Positions 26,178-38,785 of a stretch of 64,000 nt of DNA are shown here, in pieces. This DNA is from Candidatus Gastranaerophilales bacterium. GTDB lineage: Bacteria; Cyanobacteriota; Vampirovibrionia; Gastranaerophilales; Gastranaerophilaceae. The stretch's first letter is position 1. Every line of letters starts with the position of its first letter. The position numbers were made by a program, and so were the translations under genes. A model generated the notes under the pieces. That model did no database searches, had not been told where the DNA came from, and was given only the letters and a program-made list of their open reading frames with translations. The stretch covers positions 259,422-323,421 of the forward strand of contig CALVEH010000001.1 in assembly GCA_944326545.1 (NCBI GenBank), in the 5' to 3' direction.

Positions 26178-27020
26178 TTGGTTGAGAAAATAAACTCTGG
26201 TGATAATTATTGGCAAAACTTGTCATTAAAATCAGAAAAAAATGACAATGGCTTCCCTGTGAGCATTTATTCTGTACCTATTCAAACTATTAAAAAAGTT
26301 CGATATGTAATTGATTACAGCACAGGGAAACCCGATATAGACGGTCAAATAGGAGATTATTTTCAAACCCAAAACAACTGCTGGTTTTTATCAGGTATAT
26401 CGGCACTCGCATCGACTAAAGAAGGTCAAAAAATTATAAAAAAATCAGTGAAAAAACTGCCTAACAATAGTATATATGTTAATTTTGTAGGGGTAAATCA
26501 AACTGTAATGATTTCGCCTGAAACATTTGAAGCTGCTAAAAAAAGCAAATGTTACGCAAGAGGCGATGATGATGTAATTGCTCTTGAAATTGCAGCAGAA
26601 TATTATAAAAGAACACTTTTGGACAATAATGCCCAAAACGCTCAAAAACACCCCAATACCATAAACGGTAAAAACACCAGTAATGATATAAACTGGCCTT
26701 TAGCAGGCGGTTTTTCTTCTGATGTAATGTATATGTTAACAGGGAAAAAAGCAGAGACACATTTTAACAACGGTAATAAAACGCCAAAACAAATTACCGA
26801 CTCAATAGAAAAGATAAAAAAACATTCGGAGATATTTGCTGCTACTTGCAACTTCAAAAAGCCAAAAGATGGCGTAATTATACATCACGCGTATTGTATA
26901 AAAAGCGCTGATGATGATTATGTTACTTTGATAAATCCACATGACACTAAAAAAGAAGTAAAAGTGCCTATCAATAACTTTTTAGAAAACATCAACTCTA
27001 TAACAATATTAAAAGTATAG
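26178..27020 (+). CDS. Calpain-like cysteine protease (family C2-type)
   Basis: The 280 residues match the calpain catalytic core. The nucleophile is in QTQNNCWFLSGISAL (Cys68, with Gln63/Gln65 as candidate oxyanion residue), the histidine in IIHHAYCI (His237) and the asparagine in TLINPHD (Asn253). The central segment VIALEIAAEYYKR matches the calpain stretch between them. No signal peptide is visible, so it is either cytoplasmic or exported by another route. The start is TTG at 26178 behind GAGGGG. Bacterial calpain-like proteases are scattered; the substrate is unknown. It precedes the nrdDG riboswitch but probably has its own transcript. Confidence 0.72.
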   Translation: MVEKINSGDNYWQNLSLKSEKNDNGFPVSIYSVPIQTIKKVRYVIDYSTGKPDIDGQIGDYFQTQNNCWFLSGISALASTKEGQKIIKKSVKKLPNNSIYVNFVGVNQTVMISPETFEAAKKSKCYARGDDDVIALEIAAEYYKRTLLDNNAQNAQKHPNTINGKNTSNDINWPLAGGFSSDVMYMLTGKKAETHFNNGNKTPKQITDSIEKIKKHSEIFAATCNFKKPKDGVIIHHAYCIKSADDDYVTLINPHDTKKEVKVPINNFLENINSITILKV

Positions 27021-29936: not shown

Positions 29937-30602
29937 ATGAAAAGATTTATTATTTTATTTTTGGTAGTTTTAGTATATTCAATATCGTTATTTAATACAC
30001 AGGCATTAGCTGATGTAATGCCTTATTATACAGGTTCGATAAGCAATGACACCATTGGCTTTTTACAAGTTCCAAAAAGCTTTAAGCTTTATCTCTATCC
30101 GAGAGAAGATTCGCAAAATATAGAAAATGTCACTTGGACAGATACTGAAGTTAAGCTTAATAAAAAAACAATAGAACCTGCTGCTCTTTTTGCTGCTCAA
30201 GTGCAGGCAAAGGATCTTGCTTTTTGTATGGTTGTTGATATGCAAGACGATTGGTATCAAATTATATATGACAAAGACGACAACAAAAAAGGCTGGATAA
30301 AATCAACAAATATCGATAATTTTTGGAGCCTTAAAGATTTTTATTCTTACTATGGAAGAAAATATGGTCTGTATTACATGAAGAATATAGATTATCGCAA
30401 AAGAGGATACTACAGCGGAGCTGACAAGCTATCTCAAAAACTTGGCGGTTTTACATATATACGCTCAATAAAATTGAGTAAAATTAGTGGAAACTGGGCA
30501 CTTGTAACAGTACTTGATATGGGCGGTCAGCTAAAAATAGGTTATGTTCAATGGAGAGAAGACGATGGTTCTATAAGTCTTTTCCCAAAACTTGCCAATT
30601 AG
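29937..30602 (+). CDS. Exported protein, possible SH3-like domain
   Basis: The 221-residue product begins with a signal peptide (FIILFLVVLVYSISLFNTQALA, cut near residue 25). The mature part is beta-rich; the section FCMVVDMQDDWYQIIYDKDD followed by KKGWIKSTNIDNFW resembles the WYQVxxxxxxGWV pattern of bacterial SH3 domains, which often bind peptidoglycan. No catalytic motif is seen. It ends convergently with the STAND gene, overlapping by four bases. Function is not assigned beyond an envelope location. Confidence 0.65.
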   Translation: MKRFIILFLVVLVYSISLFNTQALADVMPYYTGSISNDTIGFLQVPKSFKLYLYPREDSQNIENVTWTDTEVKLNKKTIEPAALFAAQVQAKDLAFCMVVDMQDDWYQIIYDKDDNKKGWIKSTNIDNFWSLKDFYSYYGRKYGLYYMKNIDYRKRGYYSGADKLSQKLGGFTYIRSIKLSKISGNWALVTVLDMGGQLKIGYVQWREDDGSISLFPKLAN

Positions 30603-33600
30603 ATTTTTATATTATTTAGCTGACAAAATGTTTTAAACGAATTAAAGCTTTTTTGAACATCTTCAATAACTGCTTCTATTTCAAGTTTTTCTGCTTGTTC
30701 GATTGCTTTTTTGTATGCAGCTACTGCGTTTTGTGCGTATGTATGTCCGTTTTTAGGCTTTCTTAAAACCATTTCTTCAAGATATTTTGCATAAAGTTGA
30801 TAAACAGAAACTTTTAAAAGTTTCATATTGTATTTTTTAGCAATTCTCAACGATTTTTCTATATACATTTTTGCTGCATCCATATCACCCTTGATAATAT
30901 AGATTTCTGCAATAAGTTTTTTAAATAAAACCATAAAGTAGTAATTTGAAATCTTAGGATTTTTGGCAACATCCAATGCTTTTTGAGAAATGTGCAAGGC
31001 TTTTTCACTTCCGTCTGTCACAAGAGTAAGCTTCGCTATATAATACCAGCAAAGGAAAGCACCTGCAGCTATTTTTTCTTTAGCAAAGACAGTAATTTGT
31101 TCGTTGAATATATTTAAAGCTTTAGAAAGATTTCCTTCTTCTTGAAGTATTTTGCCTAAAAATACTCTCAAAAGATTTTTAACAAGAACGTCGTTATAGT
31201 TGTTTGCAAAAGTCACAACAGAGAACAAATCTGCCTTGATATTTTGCCAGTCATGTCTGTGCAGTTTATTCAATATATTTATGAAATTCCACATTGAAAT
31301 GACTTCCGGTTCAACAATTTCTTTTGATGTTTCTTGTGTAAGCTCAATGAGAATATCATCAGAGCGTTTTAAATTGCCTTGCATTGAGTACGCAAGAGCG
31401 CGTGCTAATTTTACTCGTTGCAAATAGTTTTTATTGTCAACGTGGTTCTTTTCAACTATTTCATCAATTAGTTTTAAAATTTCGAAACTTTTGTTATTAC
31501 CTTGAGAAATTAGCGCCATTGCTAAAGTTAAATTACACTCTAACCAAGCTTCGTAGATTGTATCTTTAGATATACCATTAGTTGGAGATTCCTGCGAAAG
31601 AGCTTTTTCAACAATCGGGATGATATCATTGGTTGCTACGTTATAAATTTCTTCCGAATTTCCAATACAAAACATTGCATTGAGTTTCTTTTGTTTTATT
31701 AATGCACATTCTAGTTTTTTTTCAGGGCTTTCTATTAATTTTAGAGCTGTATCAACAGATTCTATAACTCCATAATAGTTACCTGTGAGTGAACAACTTT
31801 TGCTCAAATAACCTGCTAGTTCAATAATCTTGGGCTTGTTATCTACTTTCATTGCGTTATTAATTGCAGCAGACAAATAAGAAATAGCCTCTGATGGTTT
31901 TGTTTGATAGATGAGTTTGCCCATTCTTTCCTGAATATTATTGATAATAACAGAATTGTTTTCAGGTTTTTCTTCTTGCGCTATTTTTAAACATTGTTTT
32001 TGTGACAATGTCCACAAATGTTCGTCGCCAAGATATGCGCATAATTTTATGTTATCTGTCCAAATATTTAACGCCAGCAATTTTTGGTTTAAGCTTTGTG
32101 CGATAAGTGCTTTTAAAGCATTGCTTGAAAGTGTGAAAGAGCTGATAATATCAAAAATCTTTTCATTCAACAGTACAAAATCTTTGCTTTGTTTTGCTTT
32201 TTCATAAACAAAACGCCAAAGCAGAGTGTTTTTAAATTCATATATATTGCTATTAAATTGCGAAATATATGCGAACGTACTAAGCATCTTTATTACATTT
32301 TGGAATTGTTGAGCTTCAAGCTTCATAATTATTCCAAGAAGCTTAACGTTAAACTTATTACCCATAATGGCTGCTGTGCATAGAGTTTTAAATGCAAGAG
32401 GAAATTTCTTTTGCAAATGAGTCAATCTATACACAAGTATCTCGTAAAGATTCTTAGGTAGATTTAATGCAATCGGATTTTGAGCATATCTTATTTTTCC
32501 GCTTTCGGAATAAAATGCTTTGTTCTCGTTTAAAAGAACAATCATTTGTTCGATATATGCACTGTTGCCTTGGGATAATGTATAAATTCTTTCAAAAATC
32601 TCTTTTGGTAATGGATTTGAACCTTTTAAGAATAATTTTATCAGATTGTCTGCGTCACGTGGTGAAAGATTAGATAATCTTATGTCTTCGTATTGATTTT
32701 GGAATATTTTTTCTGAATAAAAATAGCCTTGGGTAATGCGGTTATCTTTGTATGAAATTATTAGTTTTATGTTTTCGTTAAGATTGCCTCTATCAACGAA
32801 ATAAGATAAAAATTCGTATGAAGCTCCGTCAATCATGTCAAAATCGTCAATTATTATTATCAATTTTGATTTTTTCGACAATTCACAAATAAGTTTTTCT
32901 AACAGAGCAAAAGTCACATCTTTGTTGTTTAAAATGTCCTCAAAGTTTGCAGTCAATGTCGGATACAAAAAGTTGAACAAATTGTTTATTTCATCAACAT
33001 TAAAGAATGGCAAACTTTGTGACAACATTCTTTTTGCTTGGCGCAGAAAATCGTTTGACATATTAGAAAAATTCGGCATATTGAAAAATGTCAAAACTAT
33101 TTCTTGGAAGATGCCAAAAGGGCTAATTTGAGAGTTTGCGCTACATTCTCCCCAAAGCCAGATGTAATTTTGCTTTAATAAATCGTTAAAAAGATACCTT
33201 AAAACAGTAGATTTGCCGCATCCTTCAGGTGCACTTAGACCTATTATAAGTTTTTCCGGTTGAGCTATTGCTGATATGATACGATTTTTGGCTTTTATTT
33301 GATCCAGCTCTTTCGGTAGATCTCCAACCAAACTTTCTTCTTGTACTATTGGGACTGTTTTGTTATCTGAAGAAAACTCTTTATTTAATACATCTTTAGA
33401 TTTGTTTTTTACAGTCTTTTTATTCGGCTTTACATTATCTATAGGTGATTTTTGGGTGAAAGTTTCTATGTTTTTGACAACTTTTTCTTCAGAAACAACA
33501 ATATCTGTGTTTATGACTTTTTTAGATTTTATATTTTCTTTTTTTAATCCCGAAGATATTTTATCAGTGCCATCAGGTATTGCCAATAAATCTTTTGACA

Positions 33601-33934
33601 CACCTTTGTATATAGTATTTGATTGTTTTTCTTGTGGCTTTTGGGTTTGTTGTTCTTCGAATTTCTTCATCTTCGATAAATCTGTTATCGAAACTTCTGC
33701 TACAACTTTTTTAAAAAGTGTACCGCATTTTCTGCAGCTTTGTGCTTTAGGAAGATTCAAACTTTTACATTTTGGGCAGTGCTTTAAAAGCTGCAATCCG
33801 CATCTTTTGCAATATTCGGCAATGATTGGGTTTACGTTGCCGCAAACAGGGCATACCGACTGAACCTTGGTGTGACAATGATTACATCTTAATGCGTTAT
33901 CAGGTATTTCTTTTTTACATTTTAAACAGAGCAT
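30599..33934 (-). CDS. Zinc-ribbon STAND-type ATPase with TPR-like C-terminus
   Basis: This 1111-residue protein starts with three Cys4 zinc ribbons (Cys 3/6/17/20, 28/31/42/45, 53/56/67/70), then about 140 charged residues. An AAA/STAND ATPase follows: Walker A APEGCGKST at about residues 235-243 and Walker B LIIIIDDFDMI near 360. Residues 500-1100 are helical repeats of TPR or MalT-like type. STAND proteins act as signal switches, folding up until a ligand binds; zinc ribbons may contact nucleic acid or protein. It has no visible HTH output domain. It is the third gene after the anti-sigma-like and sigma-like genes, 80 bases after the latter. The ligand is unknown. Confidence 0.75.
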   Translation of the reverse strand: MLCLKCKKEIPDNALRCNHCHTKVQSVCPVCGNVNPIIAEYCKRCGLQLLKHCPKCKSLNLPKAQSCRKCGTLFKKVVAEVSITDLSKMKKFEEQQTQKPQEKQSNTIYKGVSKDLLAIPDGTDKISSGLKKENIKSKKVINTDIVVSEEKVVKNIETFTQKSPIDNVKPNKKTVKNKSKDVLNKEFSSDNKTVPIVQEESLVGDLPKELDQIKAKNRIISAIAQPEKLIIGLSAPEGCGKSTVLRYLFNDLLKQNYIWLWGECSANSQISPFGIFQEIVLTFFNMPNFSNMSNDFLRQAKRMLSQSLPFFNVDEINNLFNFLYPTLTANFEDILNNKDVTFALLEKLICELSKKSKLIIIIDDFDMIDGASYEFLSYFVDRGNLNENIKLIISYKDNRITQGYFYSEKIFQNQYEDIRLSNLSPRDADNLIKLFLKGSNPLPKEIFERIYTLSQGNSAYIEQMIVLLNENKAFYSESGKIRYAQNPIALNLPKNLYEILVYRLTHLQKKFPLAFKTLCTAAIMGNKFNVKLLGIIMKLEAQQFQNVIKMLSTFAYISQFNSNIYEFKNTLLWRFVYEKAKQSKDFVLLNEKIFDIISSFTLSSNALKALIAQSLNQKLLALNIWTDNIKLCAYLGDEHLWTLSQKQCLKIAQEEKPENNSVIINNIQERMGKLIYQTKPSEAISYLSAAINNAMKVDNKPKIIELAGYLSKSCSLTGNYYGVIESVDTALKLIESPEKKLECALIKQKKLNAMFCIGNSEEIYNVATNDIIPIVEKALSQESPTNGISKDTIYEAWLECNLTLAMALISQGNNKSFEILKLIDEIVEKNHVDNKNYLQRVKLARALAYSMQGNLKRSDDILIELTQETSKEIVEPEVISMWNFINILNKLHRHDWQNIKADLFSVVTFANNYNDVLVKNLLRVFLGKILQEEGNLSKALNIFNEQITVFAKEKIAAGAFLCWYYIAKLTLVTDGSEKALHISQKALDVAKNPKISNYYFMVLFKKLIAEIYIIKGDMDAAKMYIEKSLRIAKKYNMKLLKVSVYQLYAKYLEEMVLRKPKNGHTYAQNAVAAYKKAIEQAEKLEIEAVIEDVQKSFNSFKTFCQLNNIKI

Positions 33935-34014
33935 TACAAAAACCGCTTATTTGTTTAAGCATATTATATGATAAAGATTGATGAATTTATATAATCAAAC
34001 AGAGCTAAGAACAA

Positions 34015-34608
34015 CTAAAAATGAGATTTAACTATTTTTAAAATCTCTATTAATCTTTTGCTTACTTCTGCTTGAGATATATTTACATCTTTAGCAATAT
34101 CTTTTTGCTTAAACTCTCTTACATATCTCAAATAAAATATCTTCAAAAATTCTTTTGAAGGATTTTCTCTTTGAGCAACCAGAACAATATCAACTATTTT
34201 TTGAAGAAGATCCTTTCTAACGATTTTTTCTTCAAAAGAATCTCTCGGATCAGCTATATCGTAAACAAAAGGTTCGCTTGCAACGATACTAGTTGCTTGA
34301 GTTTTTTCAACTTCAGGCTCTTCTACTTTTGCTGGAACCGGATTCATTAGCACTTCACGAGTGCTAACATATTTGTTTTCTCTACGTCTAACTCTACCGT
34401 TTTGTTTAAGAACGGTCAGGATAGATGTGTTTACGACTTTAGCAATATAATTTTCTATGTCTTTGATATTTACGTTATCAAATAATGAATATGATCTTTT
34501 TAATGTTTCTGAACAAAAATCTTCTAAAAGATCTTCATTCCCCTTATATTTATTATTCGACTTTATTAATTTTTCTATAAGCTCTTTTTGTTCGTTTATA
34601 GTATCCAA
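34015..34608 (-). CDS. Sigma-70-like (ECF-type) regulator
   Basis: The 197-residue protein has a C-terminal helix-turn-helix of the sigma region 4 kind (FKQKDIAKDVNISQAEVSKR) preceded by LKIFYLRYVRE. The N-terminal half (NEDLLEDFCSETLKRSYSLF) resembles the ECF region 2 helix, but the sequence is divergent and the linker is long (about residues 85-125). It could be a true alternative sigma factor or an HTH regulator of similar fold. The product lies between an anti-sigma-like zinc protein and a STAND ATPase on one strand, with a 52-base gap after the former, which favours a sigma/anti-sigma pair. Confidence 0.65.
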   Translation of the reverse strand: MDTINEQKELIEKLIKSNNKYKGNEDLLEDFCSETLKRSYSLFDNVNIKDIENYIAKVVNTSILTVLKQNGRVRRRENKYVSTREVLMNPVPAKVEEPEVEKTQATSIVASEPFVYDIADPRDSFEEKIVRKDLLQKIVDIVLVAQRENPSKEFLKIFYLRYVREFKQKDIAKDVNISQAEVSKRLIEILKIVKSHF

Positions 34609-34660
34609 TTTCGCAACCCAATTCTATAAATAACTTTATTGATTATATCATATCATAGAA

Positions 34661-37600
34661 TTAGAAATTAATTATCAAAGTTAAGAAATAATCTGAGTTG
34701 TAATTTTTTAATTTTGGAACACTAACGTATTTAAGAGTATTTTTTATGCTCTTTGTTATTGCTGCATCTATTTTGTCGGAACCGCTGGATTCCAGTACCT
34801 GTATGCCTTTCATTGTATTGTCAGGTGCTATTTCAAATGAAACTTTTACACTATTATTAAATGCAACATCAGAGGCATTTGCTAAATCATTTTGTAAATT
34901 TAGCTGAATATTTTTACCTGCAGTTTGTAAATATTCTTTAACAGAAGGTTCAACTGCAAGTTTTTCATTTATTTGCCAAGATAATTTTGTAATAGATATA
35001 GCAGCAGGTTTGTCAGAGAATGAGTTTGTCATTGATTTGTTTATATCTTGAGATACAGCCGCTGATGATGTATCAGCTGCTTCTTCTTCTGAACCTTTAT
35101 TTTGAAAATCAAATACTTGATTATCCTGTGCTGTGTCAATGGAATCGTTATTTGCCGCTATATTTTTTTGATACATATAAAATCCACCGGCAGCACCTCC
35201 AATAGCAAGAAGTGTTATTAATGCACCTGCAACTGCCAGTTTTTTAGTCTTTTTAACAGCTTCTGCACTCATTGGTTCTTGAGATAAATCTAGTTCAACA
35301 TGTTCACCATCTTGAGGAACATTTTGTTCATCAAAAAGATTTTCTATTTCACCATTTTCTGCAGTTTGACCATTTTCTGGATTTTCTGATTCTGGTTGTT
35401 GATAATCTTCGTCAGTTAATTCTATACCTTCTTGTAAATCTTCGGTAGAGTTTTGGGTATTTAGTGAGTCGTTATCTTGAGTTTGCGTGTCATCGTCAGA
35501 TAATAGAGCAAGAAGATCGTCATCTAAAAGGTCTTGCAATTCACTGTTTTCTTGAGATTGTTCAGAATTAGTGTTGTTTTCATTAAAATATGTTTGTTCA
35601 TCTGCCGGTGGCATATCAGAAATCTCCTGTTCCTCGTTAAACTCTGTATTTACTTCACTTGAAAACTCAGTAGAATTATTGTCTTGGTAATCATTAGTTT
35701 CTGTTGTTATGTTTTCTTTGAATTCTTCTGCTCTGTTTTCTTCAAGAGTTGTCTCTTCGTCAATTTTGAAATCTGCTGTTGCATCGTCGTTTGGGATATT
35801 ATTTTCTTCCTGCAATTCGCTAATTTCATTAAGTTCGTCAATTGTTTCTAAATCTTCAAACTCTAGAGAATTGTCAGCTTCTTGTGATTCTTCAAATTCT
35901 TGGTTTTGAGAAAGTTTTTCTGTTGTATTTTCTTGCAATATTTCATCAGATAATTCATCCAGCTGTTCAACTTCTTCAATTGGATGAATATCTTCTGGTT
36001 CGTTATTTTCTAATGATATTTTTGCTTCAGAGATGTCTTCATTTAATTTGTCGGATTCAATACCAATTAAATCTTGTTCTGAAGTTTCTTCTAATGTCTC
36101 TGGTTGTTCATTAGGATTATTAAATGAGTCTTCTTCGATATTGTGTTCTTCCAAAATAATATCTTCTGAAACATTTAAAGTGTCATCATTTGTTGTTTCT
36201 TCTAATTCTAATGATATGTCATCGTTGAGTTCTTCAATATTATCTAATTCTTGATTTTCAATTTCGAGATTAATATTGTCGTTTTCTTCTTCTTTAATTT
36301 CTTCATGAAGGTCATCAAGCTCAACATTCGTATCTAAATTAGTTTGTGAGTTATCTTCAGCAACTTCTTCAAGTTCCATAGGAGTATCTAAATCGGCTTG
36401 TAAGTTGTCTTCAGCAATTTCTTCAAGCTCCATAGGAGCATCTAAATCGGCTTGCAAGTTGTCTTCAGCAACTTCTTCAAGTTCCATAGGAGTATCTAAA
36501 TCGGCTTGCAAGTTGTCTTCAGTGACTTCTTCAAGTTCTATAGGAGCATCTAAATCGGCTTGCAAGTTGTCTTCAGTGACTTCTTCAAATTCCATATGCG
36601 TTTCTAAATCGGCCTGTAAGTTATCCTCTGCAACTTCTTCAAGTTCCACAGGAGAATCTAAATCAGCTTGCAAGTTATCTTCAGCAACTTCTTCAAGTTC
36701 TATAGGAGCATCTAAATCGGCTTGCAAGTTGTCTTCAGCAACTTCTTCAAGTTCTATAGGAGAATCTAAATCAGCTTGCAAGTTATCCTCTGCAACTTCT
36801 TCAAGTTCTATAGGCGTTTCTAAATCTGCCTGTAAGTTATCCTCTGTAACTTCTTCGTCAGTTGCTTCTGATAGTGGTTCTTTTGTCTCTGCCAAATCCT
36901 CTACAGGAGAGCTTGCAAAAGCTTCTATAGATGCATTTAATTCATCGAAAGATTCTTGATTGATTGAATCTATTTCATCAAGCTGTTCTAAGTCATCTTC
37001 TGTTAAATTATCTGATTCTACAAGGTTTTCTACCTCAGTATTGGAATCATCCAAAGCAATATTGTCTTGTTCAGATAATTCAACATCTGTTTGATTATTT
37101 TCAGGCGTTATTTCTTGGTCTTCTTCTGTAAGGGATTCTATTTCTTCTTGCTCAGAAATTAAAGATTCATTGTTATCTGTTAAAGTTTCTTCAATTTCTG
37201 AAGAACTTTCTTCTTTTTGTTGTTCTTCCTGATCATCATAAAGATTTAAAATCTCAGGCTCAAGTTCTTTTCCGATTTCTTCAACAACTTCGGCAGCGCC
37301 TGCAGCTAAAGCACCTTGAGCAATAATTGATGCCGCTTCACCCGAGACTAATGCCCCAGATGCAGACGGGAGTGCACCCCCCAGTTTTATTGCTTCTTCG
37401 TCCGGCAAATCTTCGCCGGCATTTTCAACAAACGCCATATTGGCGATAACAGCTTGATCCACCTCCTTTTTGTTTCCGGATAAAACACTTAAAGTACTAT
37501 CATTTAAAAGTTCGTGGTAATTTTTGAGTTGTGACACAATGTCGTCAAAATCATTCATATCACAGAATGTCTCTCGACATACAGGGCAGGTCGCCACGTG

Positions 37601-38191
37601 TTTGATAAAGTATATTTTATCCGCTTCGGATGCTTCTTCATCAAGAAAACTTAGGCAAAGTTCTTTAACGTTTTCGTGATCTGTTTCGCTATATTTAGAA
37701 GGTGTTATGTCTAATTTTTGAGCATAAGGAATAAAATCTTCAATTGGATTCAAAATTTCAAGAGGATATGTGTAATATTCATCTCCATTTTTATCAAAAG
37801 TTAAATCTTCAGATGGGATGAATCCTAAGAAGCTTATGTCTTTTAATGTAGAGTCAAATTTTACAACAATGTAAGCTTGCGGTTTAATGTCATATTTTAC
37901 GTGAAGCTTTGGAACTGTAAATGTTGTGTCGTTGAATGTTACACGAACATCGAATCTGGCGTTGTTTGCATAAATGTCAGCTATTTCTACTTCTTTTGCA
38001 AAAACTGCTGAACGATATAGGCTGTGATTTGATAATGTTTTTAATCCGTTTGCATTTAAATATTTTGCTGTTGCATTAGCTGCAATACCAAGAGCGTAGG
38101 CTCTTTTTCTTAAGTACGTTTCATCAATTTTACTTGCGACAAACTTTGCATTATCAAGTACATCGTTGTCTATAGCCACATTTATACTCAT
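34661..38191 (-). CDS. Giant anti-sigma-like membrane protein with acidic repeats and TonB-C-like domain
   Basis: This 1176-residue protein combines several parts. Residues 1-175 form an unknown folded domain. At 179-205 a zf-HC2-like anti-sigma zinc motif appears (Cys179, HVATCPVC with His198, Cys202, Cys205). A very acidic, low-complexity region of about 700 residues follows and contains ten 18-residue repeats (446-625, EEVAEDNLQADLDAPIEL type). One membrane helix lies at about 984-1006 (LAVAGALITLLAIGGAAGGF), and the last 110 residues resemble a TonB C-terminal domain (SFEIAPDNTMKGIQVLESSG). Most of the chain should be cytoplasmic with only the end across the membrane. It is the first gene of the locus; its likely partner is the sigma-like protein just downstream. 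Confidence 0.7.
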   Translation of the reverse strand: MSINVAIDNDVLDNAKFVASKIDETYLRKRAYALGIAANATAKYLNANGLKTLSNHSLYRSAVFAKEVEIADIYANNARFDVRVTFNDTTFTVPKLHVKYDIKPQAYIVVKFDSTLKDISFLGFIPSEDLTFDKNGDEYYTYPLEILNPIEDFIPYAQKLDITPSKYSETDHENVKELCLSFLDEEASEADKIYFIKHVATCPVCRETFCDMNDFDDIVSQLKNYHELLNDSTLSVLSGNKKEVDQAVIANMAFVENAGEDLPDEEAIKLGGALPSASGALVSGEAASIIAQGALAAGAAEVVEEIGKELEPEILNLYDDQEEQQKEESSSEIEETLTDNNESLISEQEEIESLTEEDQEITPENNQTDVELSEQDNIALDDSNTEVENLVESDNLTEDDLEQLDEIDSINQESFDELNASIEAFASSPVEDLAETKEPLSEATDEEVTEDNLQADLETPIELEEVAEDNLQADLDSPIELEEVAEDNLQADLDAPIELEEVAEDNLQADLDSPVELEEVAEDNLQADLETHMEFEEVTEDNLQADLDAPIELEEVTEDNLQADLDTPMELEEVAEDNLQADLDAPMELEEIAEDNLQADLDTPMELEEVAEDNSQTNLDTNVELDDLHEEIKEEENDNINLEIENQELDNIEELNDDISLELEETTNDDTLNVSEDIILEEHNIEEDSFNNPNEQPETLEETSEQDLIGIESDKLNEDISEAKISLENNEPEDIHPIEEVEQLDELSDEILQENTTEKLSQNQEFEESQEADNSLEFEDLETIDELNEISELQEENNIPNDDATADFKIDEETTLEENRAEEFKENITTETNDYQDNNSTEFSSEVNTEFNEEQEISDMPPADEQTYFNENNTNSEQSQENSELQDLLDDDLLALLSDDDTQTQDNDSLNTQNSTEDLQEGIELTDEDYQQPESENPENGQTAENGEIENLFDEQNVPQDGEHVELDLSQEPMSAEAVKKTKKLAVAGALITLLAIGGAAGGFYMYQKNIAANNDSIDTAQDNQVFDFQNKGSEEEAADTSSAAVSQDINKSMTNSFSDKPAAISITKLSWQINEKLAVEPSVKEYLQTAGKNIQLNLQNDLANASDVAFNNSVKVSFEIAPDNTMKGIQVLESSGSDKIDAAITKSIKNTLKYVSVPKLKNYNSDYFLTLIINF
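36317..36856 (-). repeat. Ten-copy 54-base in-frame tandem repeat
   Basis: Ten adjacent units of exactly 54 bases encode EEVxEDNLQADLxxPxEL variants inside the anti-sigma-like gene. Units 1-9 are closely alike at the DNA level, with a few differing codons (T/A, D/E, S/A/T, I/M/V); the tenth (EDNSQTNLDTNVEL) is degenerate. This points to recent expansion by slippage or unequal recombination. Confidence 0.92.
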
Positions 38192-38380
38192 AAACTATCC
38201 TCTTATTTAATCCTCTAATTATATAGATTACAGTTCTTCAAAAAATATTCCAAAATAATTTAATGAATGTTATAATGTAACAAAATGTTTCATAATAAAT
38301 GGCATGGTTTGGCCATGTAGCAATAAAAAGTTTTCTGCAGTTTTATATAAACACAAGTGTGTAATAAAAGGAGTGTTAGC

Positions 38381-38785
38381 ATGTCAACAAGTTTTTCTAC
38401 CATTACGCCCATGAATCCGGCTACAATTTCTAAAAAACCGACATACGCTGTGAATACACCACAAGCTCAGCCGGCGGCAAGTACACCTATGAACGGACCG
38501 TATGATCAACCAACTAAGAAAAAAAGTCATTGGTTTAGAAATACAGTAATTGGTGCAGTTGTATTAGTAGCTGCTGCTACTGTATTAAGAGGCAAAGTCG
38601 GAATGTTTAAAGATTTTGATAAAGCTGCTCAATTAGGACAAGATGCAAAATTGCTTGAAAAGGCTGCTCATTATGGTAAAAAAGCAGTTGCAGAAGTGGG
38701 TGACTTTGTAATGACTTATGCCCAAAAAGCTTATGAATGGGGCAAAGGTCTATTTAACAAAGGTACTCAAGGTACAAATCCTTAA
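38381..38785 (+). CDS. Small single-pass membrane protein of unknown function
   Basis: With the ATG at 38381 (AAAAGGAG site; an upstream in-frame start at 38357 has none) the product has 134 residues. A Pro/Thr-rich N-terminus carrying FSTITPM leads into a lysine cluster (TKKKSH), a membrane helix (TVIGAVVLVAAATVL) and an amphipathic helical C-terminus (FVMTYAQKAYEWGKGLF). The TITPM tag, basic cluster and helix recur in the protein at 48307-50025. A TATAAT (38271-38276) lies about 105 bases upstream. Function unknown. Confidence 0.65.
   Translation: MSTSFSTITPMNPATISKKPTYAVNTPQAQPAASTPMNGPYDQPTKKKSHWFRNTVIGAVVLVAAATVLRGKVGMFKDFDKAAQLGQDAKLLEKAAHYGKKAVAEVGDFVMTYAQKAYEWGKGLFNKGTQGTNP

Follow-up and report, generated by a model that had tools for sequence, protein, structure and literature searches.

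A locus of three adjoining genes in the stretch of DNA analysed here (64,000 nucleotides, hereafter the window; Candidatus Gastranaerophilales bacterium, with a genome of 2.19 Mb in 19 contigs) probably encodes an autoregulated switch made of an extracytoplasmic function (ECF) sigma factor and its anti-sigma factor, together with a partner ATPase of the signal transduction ATPases with numerous domains (STAND) type. We refer to the genes and their products as SIG, ASF and STAND, respectively. That SIG and ASF form a sigma/anti-sigma pair is very likely. All coordinates are positions within the window, and the evidence is entirely computational. A preliminary description of the window had listed three adjoining open reading frames (ORFs) on the minus strand, and we find them exactly at the coordinates it gave:

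34661-38191, minus strand: ASF, 1176 amino acids (aa), predicted membrane-anchored anti-sigma factor (ORF; DUF1822, zf-HC2 and TonB_2 matches; RsiW-like model of residues 171-220)
34015-34608, minus strand: SIG, 197 aa, ECF-type sigma factor with TTG start (TIGR02937; AlphaFold2 (AF2) model with ECF sigma factors as best PDB matches)
30599-33934, minus strand: STAND, 1111 aa, with three Cys4 zinc ribbons, P-loop ATPase and tetratricopeptide repeats (TPR) (DZR and AAA_16 above cut-off; conserved motifs)

SIG matches the sigma70-ECF profile TIGR02937 over residues 13-194 with 43.8 bits (cut-off 42.9). Its AF2 model shows sigma2 and sigma4 helices with a low-confidence linker between them and no region 3, and the top PDB matches of this model are ECF sigma factors, among them sigmaE with RseA. 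That is, both profile and model give the ECF (group 4) architecture, i.e., sigma2 and sigma4 without region 3. The protein had been called sigma-70-like, which the homology to region 2 and region 4 found by profile and fold confirms. Two further findings, treated in turn, lend weight to the reading as a sigma/anti-sigma system, namely an RsiW-like model for the zinc region of ASF and a conserved ECF-type promoter before the operon. ASF is built, from its N-terminus onwards, of the following parts:

37688-38176, minus strand: DUF1822 domain, residues 6-168 (33.7 bits, cut-off 25; AF2 model of residues 1-220)
37532-37681, minus strand: class I (ASDI/ZAS-type) anti-sigma domain with Hx3Cx2C, residues 171-220 (zf-HC2; RsiW/RslA structure matches)
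35252-37471, minus strand: acidic, repetitive linker, predicted to be cytoplasmic, residues 241-980 approximately (composition; variable length; repeats in translation)
35183-35239, minus strand: predicted transmembrane helix, residues 985-1003 approximately (hydropathy peak; similar segment in relatives)
34664-34909, minus strand: TonB_2/TolA-like C-terminal domain, predicted to be periplasmic, residues 1095-1176 (TonB_2 profile match)

The model of residues 171-220 matches RsiW (5wuq_D) with Z 6.9 and a root-mean-square deviation (rmsd) of 1.3 over 50 residues, and RslA (3hug_F) with Z 6.1 and rmsd 1.8 over 49 residues; the Foldseek probability for the RsiW match of this region is 0.90. In the profile scan, zf-HC2 is found at residues 176-206 with 21.2 bits (cut-off 22.2), and the Hx3Cx2C motif begins at residue 198. 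ASF thus agrees with the definition of a class I (ASDI/ZAS) domain, i.e., a helical domain with Hx3Cx2C, where the motif is allowed to be missing. The zf-HC2-like zinc motif of the preliminary description is borne out by motif and model, with a family score just under the cut-off. The window's genus and several others retain the ligands of the motif; many genera have substituted them, with the adjacent residues still conserved. Since the ligands are lost in many genera while the domain stays, zinc itself does not serve as the general sensor. Groups mixing zinc and non-zinc members are known for class I anti-sigma domains (PMC7406223).

Alternatively, ASF could be a co-activator or membrane localiser that binds SIG and is needed for SIG activity, as some FecR-type regulators are. 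The co-occurrence of ASF and SIG in a common operon is compatible with such a role, as are the evolutionary dispensability of the zinc ligands and the lack of a known inhibitory function of DUF1822. However, the inhibitory domains of RsiW and RslA are close structural matches to the model of residues 171-220, and we consider a co-activator rather unlikely.

The DUF1822 domain (PF08852) had been overlooked in the preliminary description. It was missed in the scan of full-length ASF and recovered when residues 1-255 were scanned, and the match spans only profile positions 2-171 of 370. The AF2 model of residues 1-220 has a mean predicted local distance difference test (pLDDT) score of 91.7. For the DUF1822 part, the Foldseek search of the PDB gave no match (best E 0.26), and VIA matched the model of residues 1-165 mostly to nuclease folds of the PD-(D/E)XK kind with Z up to 8.4, where the typical best background Z is 7-8. 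D72, D81 and R83 are conserved, but no clear D-(D/E)xK motif is seen.

The very long acidic linker, the single helix and the TonB-C-like end noted before are supported by composition, hydropathy and a TonB_2 score above cut-off, respectively. The acidic stretch comprises about 740 residues with 34% D+E and 2% K+R, and its length varies across relatives. At about 36400-36960 (minus strand), it contains near-perfect 18-residue acidic repeats of the VAEDNLQADLDTPMELEE type. In 50/51 relatives, a single hydrophobic helix lies ahead of the C-terminal domain, and TonB_2 scores 25.6 bits for the whole of ASF and 29.6 bits for the C-terminal fragment (cut-off 22). We infer a periplasmic placement of the C-terminus because a lysine-rich stretch directly precedes the helix. 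Sensing of the envelope by this tail is about as likely as not. The genome encodes three further TonB_2 proteins, one of them adjoining an ExbB-like gene; a conventional TonB-type system thus seems to be present in the cell, and the tail of ASF could contact the partners of this system. On contig C6 of the same genome (L326 225-2115, minus strand), ExbB/TolQ-like and TonB-like genes adjoin each other with a BamA-like C-terminus nearby, which suggests a diderm envelope.

Alignment of the DNA upstream of ASF revealed TTGGAATATTTTT-N8-TGTAATCTATAT. The predicted promoter, directly upstream of ASF, has the form GGAATA-N13-TGTAATCTA:

38224-38251, minus strand: ECF-type promoter GGAATATTTTTTGAAGAACTGTAATCTA (GGAATA at 38251-38246, TGTAATCTA at 38232-38224; conserved upstream of ASF)

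It is present upstream of ASF in 47/48 loci of the adjacency set (families f1, f2, f4, f5), where a matrix built from 31 loci recovered 16 of the other 17. It also precedes the ASF gene of G006 (f6; L315), which is unlinked from SIG. Allowing up to 2 mismatches, the pattern yields 46 matches in 34 genomes vs. 6 for a control pattern; the window's own genome has exactly one such match, namely at ASF (control 0). Given this conservation, autoregulation through the mapped promoter is likely for most of the order. A TTGTWAC box is found upstream of the promoter in 21/48 loci, at a fixed spacing of 26 or 32-35 base pairs from GGAAT, and is possibly an activator site.

Recognition of the promoter by SIG is suggested by its ECF-like form and its location. 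The promoter might instead be used by another sigma factor, such that the targets of SIG differ and the operon is merely co-transcribed. G006, where the promoter is kept at ASF although SIG is located elsewhere, would be in accordance with this, as would the lack of further genomic promoter copies among those searched. In contrast, the ECF-like form (GGAAT as -35, TCTA as -10) and the occurrence essentially only at the ASF operon render it unlikely. Concerning a wider regulon, a widened pattern gives 10 matches in the own genome vs. 9 for the control, i.e., no excess, and no second promoter site is shared among six close species, so that no such regulon can be named.

Next, we consider how the locus is distributed. 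SIG is found in 274/286 genomes of the order and 49/50 genera, mostly with one match, and ASF in 276/286 genomes, mostly as a single copy. Both are absent from 6 genomes, compared to 0.4 expected under independence; three of these six represent one genus and are thus not independent events. Of the 135 SIG loci inspected, 130 have ASF immediately upstream and 118 have STAND immediately downstream; part of the loci are the same genomes via two collections, i.e., the number of genomes is smaller. This ASF-SIG-STAND arrangement is not due to chance, since it is found again across most genera of the order; the remaining flanking genes compared are common mainly to the same genus. The neighbourhood comparison therefore shows the three genes to be neighbours in most related genomes.

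One or both neighbours are missing in 17/135 loci. Of the genomes with these loci, 11 were searched for an unlinked STAND gene, which was found in all 11 (G107, G212, G150, G155, G166, G002, G004, G011, G006, G012, G016). For the 5 genomes searched that have no ASF beside SIG, ASF is located elsewhere in 4 (G155, G166, G006, G012) and was not found in G016. The SIG and ASF counts are order-wide (286 genomes), while those of STAND rest on the 135 loci and the 11 genomes searched. Overall, the co-occurrence of SIG, ASF and STAND is strong, though not proven for every genome.

For STAND itself, the double zinc ribbon (DZR) and AAA_16 are above cut-off in the profile scan, while TPR_MalT is sub-threshold (41.9 vs. 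cut-off 45). Six CxxC motifs with fixed spacing are present in all STAND relatives listed, and Walker A (GK[S/T]) and Walker B (D[D/N]) are kept in nearly all of them. Profiles and conserved motifs thereby substantiate the previously described 1111-residue ATPase with three Cys4 ribbons, Walker A/B and helical repeats. STAND has Walker A, Walker B and superstructure-forming repeats downstream, as expected of a STAND ATPase; the NCBIfam match is TOMM_kin_cyc and partial only. As to the hhGRE motif before Walker A and the winged-helix/sensor signature of STAND ATPases, the consensus has no clear GRE motif, and STAND-specific models stay below cut-off. Contig C2 of the same genome encodes another STAND-like protein with zinc ribbons, of 1165 aa (L329 3998-7495, plus strand).

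Following homology, the RsiW-like helical domain of ASF would hold SIG at the inner face of the cytoplasmic membrane, possibly with help of DUF1822. An envelope change felt by the TonB/TolA-like tail would weaken or destroy this hold, either via a conformational change or via stepwise proteolysis. Free SIG would then direct RNA polymerase to the promoter before ASF, which conservation strongly suggests to be one and which SIG would recognise, and its firing would raise the levels of ASF and SIG, as well as of STAND where this gene is linked. STAND, proposed as a second sensor in the preliminary description, would probably serve the same pathway as an ATP-dependent scaffold or switch, which is the weakest step; that it acts on the pathway of SIG and ASF at all could go either way.

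Several observations weigh against such a switch. With regard to the proteins, SIG is under the Pfam cut-off for region 4 and has no region 2 match in the Pfam scan, the zf-HC2 family score of ASF is slightly below its cut-off, the zinc ligands are gone in many genera, and no partner of the TonB-like tail was identified. With regard to the promoter, the ASF genes inspected in genus g18 and in families f3 and f7 lack it, as does L052, and no second genomic target was found in the own genome or in six close species. Furthermore, unlinked STAND genes (L300-L310) carry no copy of it, such that STAND is not a constant member of the regulon.

DUF1822 connects the locus to photosynthetic Cyanobacteria. 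At E 0.001 or better, it is found in 102/146 genomes of the phylum, the order's own included, and in 0/14 controls. In the cyanobacterial loci fetched, a same-strand ORF lies directly upstream of 27/30 DUF1822 genes, and the SIG profile matches in 16 of the 30 loci (E 1e-3 or better). L087, one tested from the best group, reaches 107 bits with TIGR02937; some of the upstream ORFs have no sigma match. In Cyanobacteria, SIG-profile matches that extend past the helix-turn-helix sit in genes adjoining DUF1822 genes; elsewhere in the phylum, the profile matched the helix-turn-helix only, in proteins of 250-310 aa. Since the cyanobacterial DUF1822 genes are directly downstream of sigma genes, sigma plus DUF1822 is an older pairing. 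ASF-profile matches in Cyanobacteria stop short of the anti-sigma domain, and neither the STAND gene nor the fusion of zinc, transmembrane and TonB parts was seen outside the window's order. The DUF1822/sigma partnership would predate the order, which would have elaborated it by a zinc domain, a membrane anchor and a TonB-like tail.

Genes for ECF sigma factors, DUF1822 and EACC2-caspases were found together in Cyanobacteria and interpreted as a conflict system (Kaur et al. 2021; PMC8195603). As in our locus, the gene of the DUF1822 protein is directly beside that of the ECF-type sigma factor. The order differs, i.e., sigma then DUF1822 with another third gene there, ASF then SIG here, and so does the copy number of DUF1822, which reaches 11 per genome in Cyanobacteria and is one in most genomes of the window's order. 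The preliminary claim of no described system is thus only partly right, because the DUF1822 domain of ASF links the locus to these already noted sigma/DUF1822 pairs; no paper in the literature searched describes such a pair combined with a zinc anti-sigma domain, a membrane helix and a TonB-like domain as well as a STAND gene. No sigma or anti-sigma work was found for Gastranaerophilales, Melainabacteria or Vampirovibrionia in these searches.

The locus could accordingly be read as a conflict or immunity system itself, given that DUF1822 and ECF sigma factors share those neighbourhoods and that STAND-TPR proteins are frequent in such systems. The near-universal, mostly single-copy spread across the order is unlike patchy defence islands, though; moreover, the loci inspected showed no recognisable gene for a caspase or toxin, and PADLOC gave a weak match only (mad8, E 0.006). 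We therefore regard it as very improbable and compare the sigma/anti-sigma switch with known regulators.

With SigW/RsiW and other class I pairs, it shares the Hx3Cx2C helical domain, the single membrane helix and a predicted autoregulated operon. In contrast to SigW/RsiW, the anti-sigma domain of ASF is internal behind DUF1822 and followed by a long acidic linker and a TonB/TolA-like periplasmic domain. In FecI/FecR cell-surface signalling, the membrane anti-sigma factor has a periplasmic domain of a kind able to contact envelope proteins. ASF has the same general design, but its tail is TonB_2, i.e., a different family; no FecR match was obtained in the profile scans run and no TonB-dependent receptor was recognised beside the locus. 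In SigR of Nostoc, sigma region 4 is fused to NB-ARC and TPR_MalT (PMC11119718). A sigma-type helix-turn-helix is thus also coupled to a STAND-TPR protein, although SigR is one fused protein while the window's order has separate genes, and zinc ribbons and DUF1822 occur only in the latter.

We tentatively extend this to a more far-reaching reading, which is doubtful as a whole: DUF1822 would be a sigma-partner domain that is widespread in Cyanobacteria and has a nuclease-like, probably inactive fold. In one whole order, its fusion with an anti-sigma domain and with a TonB-like sensor would have given a sigma circuit whose conserved regulon is its own operon only, with STAND as the real effector. 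It would be unusual for a sigma circuit to have just a single detectable promoter. The analysis provides a testable function (sigma partner) for a domain of unknown function present in many of the Cyanobacteria tested. For an order of non-photosynthetic Cyanobacteria from the gut and the environment, it identifies a conserved regulatory system with its predicted promoter.

Beside ASF, a divergent gene (38357-38785, plus strand) encodes a 142-aa protein with a hydrophobic segment and no Pfam match; it is kept at this place in the window's genus and a few near genera. Finally, a 280-aa protein encoded at 26178-27020 (plus strand) matches calpain-type C2 peptidases with 24.4 bits (cut-off 23.8).

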